A DNA stretch of 64,000 nt from the NCBI GenBank assembly GCA_013334325.1, contig JAAXXT010000001.1, forward strand, positions 1 through 64,000, in the 5' to 3' direction. The translations under genes and the position numbers were made by a program. This stretch comes from Erysipelotrichaceae bacterium. Lineage in GTDB: Bacteria; Bacillota_I; Bacilli_A; Erysipelotrichales; Erysipelotrichaceae. The notes under the pieces were generated by a model. The model searched no databases. It saw only the letters and a list, made by a program, of their open reading frames with translations, and was not told the origin of the DNA. The first letter of the stretch is position 1. Each line of letters starts with the position of its first letter. Of this stretch, positions 3,759 to 8,521 are shown piece after piece.

Positions 3759-4799
3759 ATGTCTATTCTATACACATTGCTCATCTTAAGCGTAATCATC
3801 ATGGTTCATGAAATTGGACATTTAGCGAGTGCCAAACTTTTTAATGTATATTGTCAAGAATTTTCATTGGGAATGGGTCCAAAAATATGGGGCTTTAAGA
3901 GAAAAGAAACCTCATATAACTTAAGATTGTTTCCCTTTGGAGGTTTTGTCAATATGGCAGGGGAAGCAATGATCGACGTTGAAGTTCCTCATGAAAGAAC
4001 CCTCTTAGGCATTAAAAAATATCAACGAATCATCATCATGCTATCAGGCATCTTTATGAATTTTATTTTAGCCTTTGTGCTTTTTGTTGGAATCAATTGG
4101 AACTTAGGATATATTTATCAATCACCTAAAGCAGTTATTGCGGGAGTTGTTGAAAACTCACCTGCTGAAGTTGCTGGTTTACAATTGGATGATAAGATCT
4201 TGAAAATGACTTTCGTAGATGGATCCTCAATTATCCCAAAGAATTTTGATGATGTGATTACCTATACTCAGCTATACCATAATGAAATCACTTTTACGCT
4301 TTTAAGAGGATCCACTGAACTTACGATCTCAGTCACTCCAGTCTATGATGAAGAGAACCAACGCTATTTCTTAGGGGTCATGTTACCCCCATCAGAGAAA
4401 GTAACCATTAATCTCTTTGAAGGTATTGGATATGCCTTCAATACCATGATAGGGACGATCTACGGCATGTTCTTATTGATAGGTAAGTTATTAACGGGAG
4501 TAGGTTTACAATCGGTCAGCGGTCCCTTAGGGATCATAGAGGTCACTCAGACTCAAGCTAGTTATGGTTTACTCAATATGATTTATTTAACAGCCATCTT
4601 ATCTCTAAATGTAGGTGTCTTTAACTTATTACCACTCCCAATTCTAGATGGTGGTAGGGTGTTTCTCATCTTGATCGAAATGATCATAAAAAAACCAATC
4701 AATAAAAAATTTGAATTGGCTTTGATGTATGGAAGTGCACTTGTTATGATTCTTTTGATGGTATTAGCTACTTGGCAAGATTTAGGAAAATTACTCTAG
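3759..4799 (+). CDS. rseP: Site-2 intramembrane zinc metalloprotease (RseP/RasP)
   Basis: Cleaves transmembrane substrates such as anti-sigma factors and signal-peptide remnants within the membrane. The 346-aa protein has the HEIGH zinc site at His17-Glu18-His21 in the first membrane helix and the FPFGGFVNMAGE segment. A PDZ domain spans roughly residues 125-205, and the second catalytic motif is NLLPLPILDGGRV near residue 295. A good SD (AAGGAG) precedes ATG 3759. It ends 9 bases inside the 3' end of the convergent glucosaminidase gene, with no terminator between them. Confidence 0.95.
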   Translation: MSILYTLLILSVIIMVHEIGHLASAKLFNVYCQEFSLGMGPKIWGFKRKETSYNLRLFPFGGFVNMAGEAMIDVEVPHERTLLGIKKYQRIIIMLSGIFMNFILAFVLFVGINWNLGYIYQSPKAVIAGVVENSPAEVAGLQLDDKILKMTFVDGSSIIPKNFDDVITYTQLYHNEITFTLLRGSTELTISVTPVYDEENQRYFLGVMLPPSEKVTINLFEGIGYAFNTMIGTIYGMFLLIGKLLTGVGLQSVSGPLGIIEVTQTQASYGLLNMIYLTAILSLNVGVFNLLPLPILDGGRVFLILIEMIIKKPINKKFELALMYGSALVMILLMVLATWQDLGKLL

Positions 4800-7580
4800 T
4801 CCTGCCAACATTCTTCTGATTTTAACTAAATCGGTCGTACTGACTTTGCCATCACCATTTACATCGGCAGACAGTACGGCCTTTTCATTTGGAGTTTCTA
4901 AGCCTGCGATGTATCGTCTAAGTTGAACCAAGTCAGTTGTAGTAACCTTACCATCATCGTTTAGGTCTGCTTCCATATAAAACTCAATACTGACACTCGT
5001 ATCTAAGTAAGGATAATCTAAGGTTAAAGTGGTTAAACGAGTATTTAAGGATTCTAAATTAAAGTTCCATTTATAGATATGATACTTGGAATTAAGCGTT
5101 ACTTTAAATGAGACTTGATCAGTGGAATAAACAGTTGAACCTGAAACAACGGGTATTGAACTAATATTGGCTTCTAATAAACCTCCAATTAGTTCACTAT
5201 CATATGATAATAGTATAGGTTTCACAATATTACTTACACTTACTAGTTTAGAACTTATATTTCCTGCAGGATCTGTCGCAATAAAAGTATAAGAACCATT
5301 TCTCATAAAGGTATATGAGTCGGTATTTAAGGTTCCTTCATTAGTTTGAGCGTTTACGATAATATCACTTGCGCTTATTGTCGTATTATCGAAATCTTCA
5401 ATGGTAATAATTGGTGGAATCAAATCGATGTTGTCGATGGTAACAGTTTTCTCTGAGATATTGCCAGCATTATCTGTAGCTTTGAATACGAAAGATCCAT
5501 TTTCTGTAAATGTTGCAGTATTTGTTTCTAGTTGTCCTTCATTTACTGTTGCGGTTACGGTGATGTTTTGATTAGTTGGTTGGGTAGAGTAATTGTCTAT
5601 AGTGATGATTGGGGCTGTTTTATCGATGGTAAATTGGAGATTTTGAACGACTCCACTAGAACTAGTGGCTACTAAATCATAGGTCCCTTCAGAGCTCACT
5701 GTATCACCAGATAAGATGGATGAGCCATTTATTGTTGCAGTACCTGAAGTGAAAAATATCTGCTTGTCTGTATTATACAAACCATGATGAACAACTCCTG
5801 TAACAAATTTAGAAATGTAATCCGTAATAAGATCAGCATCGATATAGCCAATAGATCGTTGTGCATCATATGCGATTAGAATTGTATTTTGATCATTATT
5901 AATAGTTCCATCTAGGTTAATTGGATTGGTTGTTTGAACTTTATAAACTAATTTACCGTTTACCATAATTCCTTCTAAAATGATGACTGGATAATTCGTT
6001 GCCCTTGAATAAACGTTATAGAAGACTGTACTCAGTTGGGCATCTTTATAAATGTTTCTAGTTACACTTGAGTCCAGAATGCCTAATTGAATAGTGTTGA
6101 GATCTTTAAATCCAAGATATCGATCTATTCGATAAGCGATTCCAGAGATGCCTGCGCTCCACCAAGGATCAGATGCATATTTTGTATTAAGTCCAGCACC
6201 TTTGTTTCCAATATTGCTGGCATAGAATACGGAACTGTTATAACTCATATAAGTTCGACGTAGATTAATGCCCATATGTTCATTTACACAGGCTTCAATG
6301 GATGAAAATGCAGCGGCATTATCCGGATTACTATCAACAGCACCCCAACCGAAAAGGTTATAACGACCTAAACAATAATGGATAACGTTTAATTCATCAG
6401 CGTATTTTCCGCTTGGAAATGTTGCACAAAAGGTTGCGACCGTATAGGGTAATAGAGCCAAAGTAGAACTATCTTTTACGATCAATCCATTTAAATTGGC
6501 AGGATTTTGAGCATAGGTACTTCTACCAAATCCACTTTCTAAAGCACCCATACTATAAATCATTAAAGCGTTCATCCCGTAAGTGTTTTGAGCACTAATA
6601 AAATATTCTCCAGCATTGGTCATCGTACTTGAACTTGGGTTCTGATTGTTTGCGCTTTGATAGTAGCTAAGGTAAGTGTTTAGCTCAGATCCTGTATAGT
6701 TGCTTCTTGATCTTAAGTTAGTATAAGAATAGTAGTTATAAAACTTACCAATGGTTGTTCCATTATAAACAGGTTGGGTTAGATCGACATCATAATAAAA
6801 TAGAATACCATCTGGACTGTAATATGATCCGACAGGTAACCAATCTGGAGCCAATGAAATCTCATTAGTACTATTTGAGGTTGATATATAGTTTAAAACT
6901 ACTTTTAGTTGTTTAAAGGTCTGAGAACCATTGATCGTTGTCTTAACATCGTTGGAAACTGAATAATAAGCTTGTTTCGGAACGATTGTTTTGACCCCAG
7001 TTGAGATATCAATATTATAAGTCCAACCATTATCAAGATAAATCAATGGGATTATTTGAATCTGATTCACTTTAGCATAACCTTTAGCCCCGTTAACTGA
7101 AACCAAAGCAGAAAGATTTGAAGGTGTGATGTTTCCGGTACCGTTGTATCTTACGGTTCCATAATAGAACAGTTGATTTCGATCATTTATATAAGTATAA
7201 CCAGAAGTTAATGTGGAATTCGCATAGATGTTCATCGTTGCACTATTGGTATACACTAGGTTTTGTGAATATGCCATTGCACGATCTGCAGCTACGATCT
7301 TACTAAAATCCGTTTCAACGATAGTTGTTGTTGGATTGTCTCCAAAATAAGTGATGATGACATTCTTCAATCCATCAACTTTAGTTTTTTGATCAAACAC
7401 AACTACTGCTGAATCATATTCAGACAATGAAAAACAACCCAAAGATTCTAACTCTGTGGCTGAAATAATTCTATCTACACTGTATCGATCTCCTGTACAT
7501 TGGATTGCGTTGACTTTCAGATGCAGGAAAGCAGAAATTAAGGTCAATGCCAAGACAAAAGAAATACAAACTTTTCTCAT
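4791..7580 (-). CDS. Secreted glucosaminidase with Ig-like repeats and C-terminal dockerin-like domain
   Basis: Likely an exported peptidoglycan hydrolase of the endo-beta-N-acetylglucosaminidase (GH73-like) type. Residues 1-28 form a signal peptide (MRKVCISFVLALTLISAFL). The first ~330 residues are a Tyr/Asn/Ser-rich beta region. The glucosaminidase core follows, with ALMIYSMGALESGFGRS (probable catalytic Glu near residue 347) and YNLFGWGA. Two related Ig-like repeats (about 653-715 and 717-788) each begin with a PIITI segment and contain TD-AGNIS. The last ~65 residues contain two dockerin F-hand repeats (DLNDDGKVTTTDLVQLRRYIAG and its partner DVNGDGKVSTTDLVKIRR), with the Ca2+-binding Asp/Asn pattern. 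The start overlaps the upstream 314-aa gene by ATGA, so both are one operon. Wall-hydrolase activity is inferred from the core motifs; the dockerin's partner is unknown. Confidence 0.85.
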   Translation of the reverse strand: MRKVCISFVLALTLISAFLHLKVNAIQCTGDRYSVDRIISATELESLGCFSLSEYDSAVVVFDQKTKVDGLKNVIITYFGDNPTTTIVETDFSKIVAADRAMAYSQNLVYTNSATMNIYANSTLTSGYTYINDRNQLFYYGTVRYNGTGNITPSNLSALVSVNGAKGYAKVNQIQIIPLIYLDNGWTYNIDISTGVKTIVPKQAYYSVSNDVKTTINGSQTFKQLKVVLNYISTSNSTNEISLAPDWLPVGSYYSPDGILFYYDVDLTQPVYNGTTIGKFYNYYSYTNLRSRSNYTGSELNTYLSYYQSANNQNPSSSTMTNAGEYFISAQNTYGMNALMIYSMGALESGFGRSTYAQNPANLNGLIVKDSSTLALLPYTVATFCATFPSGKYADELNVIHYCLGRYNLFGWGAVDSNPDNAAAFSSIEACVNEHMGINLRRTYMSYNSSVFYASNIGNKGAGLNTKYASDPWWSAGISGIAYRIDRYLGFKDLNTIQLGILDSSVTRNIYKDAQLSTVFYNVYSRATNYPVIILEGIMVNGKLVYKVQTTNPINLDGTINNDQNTILIAYDAQRSIGYIDADLITDYISKFVTGVVHHGLYNTDKQIFFTSGTATINGSSILSGDTVSSEGTYDLVATSSSGVVQNLQFTIDKTAPIITIDNYSTQPTNQNITVTATVNEGQLETNTATFTENGSFVFKATDNAGNISEKTVTIDNIDLIPPIITIEDFDNTTISASDIIVNAQTNEGTLNTDSYTFMRNGSYTFIATDPAGNISSKLVSVSNIVKPILLSYDSELIGGLLEANISSIPVVSGSTVYSTDQVSFKVTLNSKYHIYKWNFNLESLNTRLTTLTLDYPYLDTSVSIEFYMEADLNDDGKVTTTDLVQLRRYIAGLETPNEKAVLSADVNGDGKVSTTDLVKIRRMLAGLE

Positions 7581-8521
7581 TGAGTTGTTCCCATAAACGG
7601 AATCTCTATATACGAAGGTTTATTGACTAATTTAATAAATACATGAATTGACTCGTTTTGTAGACTATATAGATCAATCGTCTCATCTGTAATGTCCATA
7701 AATAAATAGGCAGTTTTCATTCCAGTGAATTCTAGTCCAAACATTGGGACATACTCATCATTTAAATAGCTTTGATCTACGGATTGGAAAGTACCTTTCC
7801 CATCAATAATAATATAAGTACTTTCTACGCTTAAAGGGACCGTTGTATTGTTTTCTAAAGTGACTTGGAATCCGAAAATCTGTGTTTGAGAACTAAAAAC
7901 AACTTCATCATGGTCACCGTTTTCTTTGAGTGTATAAAATGAATGAATACTTACTAAACTTTTATCAATGATGGTCGCTGTATAATCAGGTAATTGATCT
8001 TCAACCCCTAACATTTCCCTAGTTCCAGCATGAGCAATCTCATTTAAATTAAAAGATAGGTTGTAGATTCGATCGATCGATACCTTGAGAATCAATTCAT
8101 TTAATGATCGATTAACAACAGGAATAAACAAACAAGCAGTTTGTGTCAATTCAGTTGAGGATTCAGGCAATGGACATTTTAAATCAAATCCTTGGCTTTG
8201 TAAGTAGGTAGTATACTCAGTGGTATTGGCTAAATTGATATTTTCTGAACTGGTATATGGATTTTGAGAAAGATTAAGGGCTTTATTGCTGGTGATTGTG
8301 ACATTGGCCATAATGAAATCATATTGGACATCCATAAATTGATAGACTTTATAGTCGTTGAGTGTAACGGTATAGGTTTGTTCTGGTTCTGGATCAGGAT
8401 CGGCTTTAATGTTTTCAATCATTCCTCTTACATAAAAACCTAAACTTAAAAGAGATACTGTCAAAACAGCAATCATGCTGAGTTTAAATACGGTTTTACT
8501 AATGGCATTGTTGTTCTTCAT
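7577..8521 (-). CDS. Membrane-anchored extracellular protein of unknown function
   Basis: I do not recognise this 314-aa protein. A short basic N-terminus is followed by one hydrophobic helix (about residues 14-32, KLSMIAVLTVSLLSLGFYV). A Pro/Asp/Glu-rich linker (DPDPEPEQ) leads into a beta-rich, Asn/Thr-rich extracellular region with several NxT/NxS sites. It is the first gene of a two-gene operon with the dockerin-bearing glucosaminidase, whose start codon overlaps its stop (ATGA). That suggests a shared role in wall remodelling or assembly. It has no SD; the start lies 7 bases after a TGGTAAAAT box, so it is probably a leaderless transcript. Confidence 0.75.
   Translation of the reverse strand: MKNNNAISKTVFKLSMIAVLTVSLLSLGFYVRGMIENIKADPDPEPEQTYTVTLNDYKVYQFMDVQYDFIMANVTITSNKALNLSQNPYTSSENINLANTTEYTTYLQSQGFDLKCPLPESSTELTQTACLFIPVVNRSLNELILKVSIDRIYNLSFNLNEIAHAGTREMLGVEDQLPDYTATIIDKSLVSIHSFYTLKENGDHDEVVFSSQTQIFGFQVTLENNTTVPLSVESTYIIIDGKGTFQSVDQSYLNDEYVPMFGLEFTGMKTAYLFMDITDETIDLYSLQNESIHVFIKLVNKPSYIEIPFMGTTQ

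Follow-up and report, generated by a model that had tools for sequence, protein, structure and literature searches.

We analysed a 64,000-nucleotide stretch (the window) of an Erysipelotrichaceae genome (GCA_013334325.1, contig JAAXXT010000001.1), which encodes on its minus strand a secreted glucosaminidase ending in a dockerin (positions 4791-7580; 929 residues, ATG start). This dockerin is probably the plug of a dedicated, non-cellulosomal dockerin-cohesin leash for wall hydrolases. The proposal is based on the domains of the proteins involved, their predicted folds, the linkage of their genes and their co-occurrence across related genomes. According to the model, the glucosaminidase would be exported and its dockerin would fold on Ca2+ outside the cell. 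A single-cohesin receptor, its C-terminal helix lying in the cytoplasmic membrane, would catch the exported enzyme. Docking would be non-covalent and, because Ca2+ folds the dockerin, is expected to be Ca2+-dependent. The docked enzyme would be held between membrane and wall, close to the side of the wall that faces the membrane, instead of diffusing off, and could there influence wall growth or cell separation.

The first-pass annotation had read the gene as a glucosaminidase with a C-terminal dockerin-like pair of repeats, and this was borne out by the open reading frame (ORF), by Pfam matches to PF01832 and PF00404 and by Foldseek. A hydrophobic stretch with its Kyte-Doolittle peak at residue 5 marks the signal peptide (approximately residues 1-25, positions 7506-7580; cleavage site placed by eye). 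The glucosaminidase domain spans residues 325-485 (positions 6126-6608) and scored 41.6 bits against a PF01832 cut-off of 30.2. Glu348, which we take to be the catalytic residue, is unchanged across seven aligned orthologues. These features fit an autolysin-type wall hydrolase with predicted activity against peptidoglycan.

The type I dockerin occupies residues 871-925 (positions 4806-4970). It matched Dockerin_1 with an E value of 8.2e-13 and 48.8 bits against a cut-off of 22.9, and scored 55.2 bits for PF00404 in the genome search. Both F-hand repeats are intact, and their loops, DLNDDGKVTTTD and DVNGDGKVSTTD, retain the Ca2+ ligand positions of the consensus. The AlphaFold model of the protein tail had a predicted local distance difference test (pLDDT) score of 89.2, and the best 28 Foldseek rows for it were all solved dockerins. 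By sequence, the closest solved dockerin is found in 4fl4 (phmmer, E 2.5e-10). A chance pair of EF-hands was ruled out by the Pfam match and the Foldseek rows.

According to the annotation, the lack of any cohesin in the genome, together with a stand-alone fold, would refute a scaffold role; a cohesin is present. A profile search of the window genome (G000; 1.95 Mb, 98.8% complete) returned one PF00963 cohesin match and, above cut-off, two dockerin proteins: the glucosaminidase and a subtilisin-like protease. The cohesin protein (L004:2191-3843, 550 residues) starts with a signal peptide and the cohesin. Two PF12733 domains and another ectodomain come next, and a strong C-terminal membrane helix begins at residue 517 and is followed by a short basic tail. 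Its gene shares a contig with that of the protease and lies 1.2 kb from the protease dockerin, with one Rieske-protein gene between them. The protease is secreted (973 residues; PF00082, 166 bits), and its last third resembles residues 593-929 of the window protein at 43% identity. In a survey of 12 chosen genomes, the cohesin protein was the sole PF12733 protein of the window genome, and G005, which has no dockerin, had none. In our model, this one cohesin would serve both dockerin clients from two loci.

Residues at two loop positions were compared between the clients. All four dockerin repeats of the window genome carry Thr-Thr at positions 10 and 11, through which type I dockerins of known pairs touch their cohesins. 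In a second genome of the genus (G006), position 10 of the first repeat is Ala in both dockerins, though they are encoded at separate loci. This would fit a shared partner, but it is a single site and chance is possible. Loop 1 of the protease dockerin in the window genome lacks Asp at position 5.

The glucosaminidase is present in all eight genomes of the genus, in a similar gene neighbourhood. It bears a dockerin in exactly the four that have a cohesin (G000, G001, G002 and G006). Neither module was found in G003, G004, G005 or G007 (57, 86, 96 and 81% complete, respectively), whose orthologues continue after approximately residue 585 with other, unmatched sequence. In G001 and G002 the dockerin protease is missing from the cohesin locus, yet both the cohesin and the glucosaminidase-dockerin are kept. 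The glucosaminidase is therefore the partner common to all four.

These comparisons bear on a different explanation, in which the dockerin works by itself as a Ca2+ module, for wall binding or for enzyme stability, and the cohesin serves the neighbouring protease alone. Within the window's genus the cohesin does adjoin the protease and not the glucosaminidase, and other wall lysins have Ca2+-binding motifs without cohesins (PMC4022735). However, this explanation leaves the gene linkage unaccounted for. It also sits poorly with the cohesin kept in the two genomes whose cohesin locus has no protease, with the lack of a dockerin on orthologues in cohesin-less genomes, and with three genomes in which a cohesin directly follows the glucosaminidase-dockerin (G040, G042 and G014). 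We regard it as improbable.

Linkage of cohesins and dockerins was examined across 98 relative genomes. PF00963 matches were present in 19 and dockerins in 51. Treating genomes as independent and uncorrected for relatedness, dockerins occurred in 18 of the 19 PF00963 genomes vs 33 of the 79 others (Fisher 1.8e-5) and, outside the genus, in 14 of 15 vs 33 of 75 (Fisher 4e-4). For 15 of the 25 cohesin matches, spread over 13 genomes, a dockerin is encoded no more than 5 kb away. Some of these do not count as receptor-enzyme pairs, because cohesin and dockerin share an ORF (G021, G056 and G076, plus one match in each of G009 and G030). Adjacent pairs include G040, in which a cohesin gene follows the glucosaminidase-dockerin after a 2 bp gap, and G042, in which the glucosaminidase-dockerin is followed 3 bp downstream by a second cohesin of its own. 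Elsewhere in G042, a protease-dockerin adjoins a membrane-anchored cohesin protein, as in the set of the window genome, and the cohesin gene of G006 has a 4 bp overlap with the gene for its protease-dockerin.

Co-occurrence scored by PF00963 alone proved misleading. It implied that 33 of the 51 dockerin genomes were partnerless, but a profile of cohesins from the genus and family, and the neighbouring genes, revealed receptor-like genes that it had missed. The profile was built from an alignment (A4) of six cohesins, four from the genus, that of G040 and one from G042, and was applied to all 98 genomes. Beyond the PF00963 matches it returned further ones in G014 (78.4 and 43.9 bits), G042 (53.9 bits) and G032 (20.6 bits); a dockerin gene immediately precedes one of the two in G014 and those in G042 and G032. 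The remaining matches had little strength (E 5e-6 to 0.09), and most fell in large frames rich in repeats.

Two further arrangements of these modules were observed. Adjoining dockerin and cohesin modules occur within large single ORFs in G021, G056, G076 and G009 (L098, L102, L117 and L046), whose products possibly dock in cis or head to tail. Five consecutive dockerin-bearing proteins are encoded in G083 (L099, G083:C42, 1-11220), and contig C48 of the same genome carries another dockerin and a membrane-anchored cohesin protein approximately 5 kb apart.

The arrangement of dockerin hydrolase followed by receptor extends across the order. A glucosaminidase-dockerin gene is present in 34 of the 98 genomes, and 32 of these genes have at least 400 bp of downstream sequence; G016 and G019, with less than 130 bp, were set aside. 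Outside the genus, all 28 testable genes are followed on the same strand by a receptor-like gene, at distances from -17 to +23 bp. Within the genus this is true of none of the four. The products of all 28 neighbours start with a signal peptide, followed by a beta module as first domain and, in 27, by a PF12733-like domain; the remaining gene is cut by a contig end. Among ten receptor-like proteins inspected by eye, all eight complete ones end in a membrane helix and a basic tail, and PF12733 scored above cut-off in all ten scanned with Pfam. Two enzyme-receptor pairs each are present in G046, G070, G079, G082 and G090. In these other genera, each dockerin hydrolase would have a private receptor-like protein, usually encoded by the next gene.

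As the training data of the local profiles for the glucosaminidase, the PF12733-like domain and the compact first module described below included much of what they scored, their counts are partly circular. Pfam provides independent support. Of 23 among the 34 glucosaminidases scanned, 21 scored above cut-off and two below (G001, 22.1 bits; G047, 28.8 bits). Searched in all 98 genomes, PF12733 was found in 33 of the 34 glucosaminidase-dockerin genomes vs 14 of the 64 others (Fisher 1.3e-13, relatedness uncorrected). The sole exception was G016, whose gene lies near a contig end. After merging repeat matches per ORF, 37 of the 60 PF12733 proteins lie within 3 kb of a dockerin and 23 do not, and the domain also occurs in nine of the 47 genomes that have no dockerin.

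The identity of the first module in these neighbours varies. It is a clear cohesin in three of the 28 (G014, G040 and G042) and a compact beta module of approximately 90 residues, lacking the middle of a cohesin, in the other 25. A further alternative is that the neighbour of the dockerin hydrolase gene is, in most genera, unrelated to cohesins (a wall-binding or regulatory membrane protein, for example), and that dockerins are bound only by the few clear cohesins. Comparison by hhalign is ambiguous on this point. The compact module scored 69.6% against cohesins with signal peptides removed (88.5% with signal peptides), falling to 7.3% against more distant cohesins, while controls with other beta domains of the same receptor-like proteins reached at most 3.6%. 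The layout of signal peptide, first module, PF12733 and membrane helix matches that of the clear cohesin receptors. In addition, a receptor-like gene follows all four metallo-beta-lactamase-dockerin genes and one of four GH25-dockerin genes. The products of the former (L081, L083, L089 and L093) are secreted, have a metallo-beta-lactamase fold and end in a dockerin, and each of these genes has its own receptor-like gene no more than 13 bp after it. As the neighbour follows several enzyme types, the receptor-like gene tracks the dockerin and not the enzyme. We consider an unrelated partner unlikely, though the most serious of the alternatives. By position and layout the compact module appears cohesin-like, with its kinship unproven.

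Several observations weigh against a dockerin-cohesin leash. The uncertain kinship of the compact module applies to 25 of the 28 neighbours, and three of the four GH25-dockerin genes have no receptor-like neighbour. In the window genome itself, the glucosaminidase and cohesin genes are on separate contigs. The genus contrast may reflect one evolutionary event, a single gain or loss, and for that reason we count it as one contrast. A frameshift breaks the cohesin gene of G002, which has no signal peptide; truncated uppS and cdsA frames in the same assembly suggest a sequencing error, and gene decay is possible. Finally, the PF00963 score of the window-genome cohesin was borderline (24.5 bits vs a cut-off of 24.1), and the module went unlisted in a whole-protein Pfam scan with E values up to 1. 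Such scans also left the G001 and G006 cohesins unlisted, and a cohesin of G042 scored 21.3 bits, below the cut-off.

Because of this borderline score, the module was folded with AlphaFold. The model had a pLDDT of 74.9, with residues 112-128 poorly modelled. The first 47 Foldseek rows were cohesin modules or chains of cohesin complexes, except 2o4e, whose title says only that it is an interaction module of C. perfringens; the best row was 1g1k (E 7.5e-4). With VIA-align the 40 best rows were all cohesins, led by the C. perfringens cohesin 2vo8 (Z 9.5, 2.5 Å, 106 residues). The predicted structure thus supports a cohesin fold for the module in L004:2191-3843, a shared fold being no proof of partner capture.

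Cohesins and dockerins are best known from cellulosomes. A cellulosome was ruled out here, as the window genome has one cohesin, no multi-cohesin scaffoldin and no dockerin on a plant-polysaccharide enzyme. The suggestion of the first-pass annotation that this lineage uses dockerin-cohesin pairing to position an autolysin was supported by the cohesin in the genome, the exact co-occurrence within the genus and the order-wide linkage. Its scaffold did not materialise: in place of a cohesin array, there is one membrane-anchored cohesin protein. The single cohesin and the lack of a plant-polymer dockerin carbohydrase also count against a remnant of a cellulosome or other degradative complex, in which the glucosaminidase would attack foreign peptidoglycan or polymers of N-acetylglucosamine and the protease foreign protein. 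Such a remnant would agree with a secreted protease as second dockerin client and with the dockerin wall hydrolases in cellulosomes of gut ruminococci (PMC6403190). The glucosaminidase, however, occurs in every genome of the genus, dockerin or not, in a conserved neighbourhood, which fits a housekeeping wall enzyme. A degradative remnant seems to us the least probable of the explanations considered.

Cohesin and dockerin modules outside plant-fibre digestion are also known from Archaeoglobus and from glycosidases of Clostridium perfringens. In the latter, the pair connects one secreted enzyme with another and has no membrane anchor. Capture of a secreted dockerin protein by one cohesin at the cell surface has precedents in cellulosomes. 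OlpA and OlpC of Clostridium thermocellum are surface anchors of this type, with one cohesin and SLH-type attachment. ScaE of Ruminococcus flavefaciens is likewise a single-cohesin surface anchor, held by LPXTG (PMC2930009). Whereas OlpA, OlpC and ScaE act in cellulosomes through SLH-type or LPXTG anchors, the receptor described here has a C-terminal membrane helix and no cellulosome, and its clients would be a wall hydrolase and a protease.

Dockerins on wall hydrolases are in themselves not new. According to a review (PMC6403190), the cellulosome of Ruminococcus champanellensis has lysozyme activity and several dockerin-containing wall hydrolases, and a 'lyticome' was proposed. There, as here, a peptidoglycan hydrolase bears the dockerin, but its partner is the scaffoldin of a fibre-digesting complex, in contrast to the dedicated membrane-anchored receptor proposed here. 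Dockerin peptidases are also already known (PMC2930009, PMC12997984). A functional parallel may be SagB-SpdC of Staphylococcus aureus, in which a glucosaminidase is held and tuned by a membrane partner and trims new glycan strands (PMC12272431). SpdC, an integral membrane protein, differs in belonging to the CAAX protease family and in binding its enzyme directly, and the passages on it mention no dockerin or cohesin. The leashed glucosaminidase might similarly trim new glycan strands, or act in cell separation. A literature search, with subscription journals mostly outside its reach, found neither a stand-alone dockerin wall hydrolase paired with a membrane-anchored single-cohesin receptor nor the spread of such a pair through the order.

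The remaining parts of the window protein lie between its catalytic domain and dockerin. The two Ig-like repeats of the first-pass annotation (approximately residues 593-785, positions 5226-5804) are visible by eye and common to the dockerin protease; no Pfam Ig family scored above cut-off in this region. A beta module (approximately residues 786-870, positions 4971-5225), delimited by alignment and the AlphaFold model, precedes the dockerin, and its counterpart in G040 scored as a divergent InlB B-repeat (PF18998, 30.7 bits). Within the glucosaminidase domain, at approximately residues 360-405, the dockerin-bearing orthologues have at least about 45 extra residues that dockerin-less orthologues lack.

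Upstream, overlapping the glucosaminidase gene by 4 bp on the same minus strand, lies a gene for a 314-residue protein with one N-terminal membrane helix (positions 7577-8521). The Pfam scan returned nothing above cut-off for this protein. Its gene also precedes the glucosaminidase in the seven other genus genomes, dockerin present or absent, and we treat it as a neighbour only, claiming no link to the docking system.

Dockerins were also encountered in a prophage of G002 (L041, G002:C79, 4913-7679). Its tail protein carries a weak dockerin (21 bits, below cut-off). The next ORF encodes 82 residues that start with a hydrophobic segment and include a full dockerin (52 bits), and it sits just before small membrane-protein and endolysin-like genes. 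Relatives of this 82-residue protein were found neither in phages, with its first 40 residues as query and E values up to 1, nor in viral contigs. The phage may aim its dockerins at the host cohesin receptor, for adsorption or for excluding rivals.

Taken more broadly, and held with rather more doubt than the leash itself, these data may well describe a non-cellulosomal unit of dockerin hydrolase and membrane-anchored receptor shared by two families of the order. The module of approximately 90 residues would then represent a minimal dockerin-binding domain of a new class, the leash on autolysins would be a plug that is reversible and depends on Ca2+, and dockerins for the same receptor may be carried by prophages. 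If true, this would be a new way for bacteria to keep their autolysins in place, with a connector best known from cellulosomes working stand-alone. It would also provide a large natural set of enzyme-receptor pairs and perhaps a smaller dockerin-binding domain for protein engineering.

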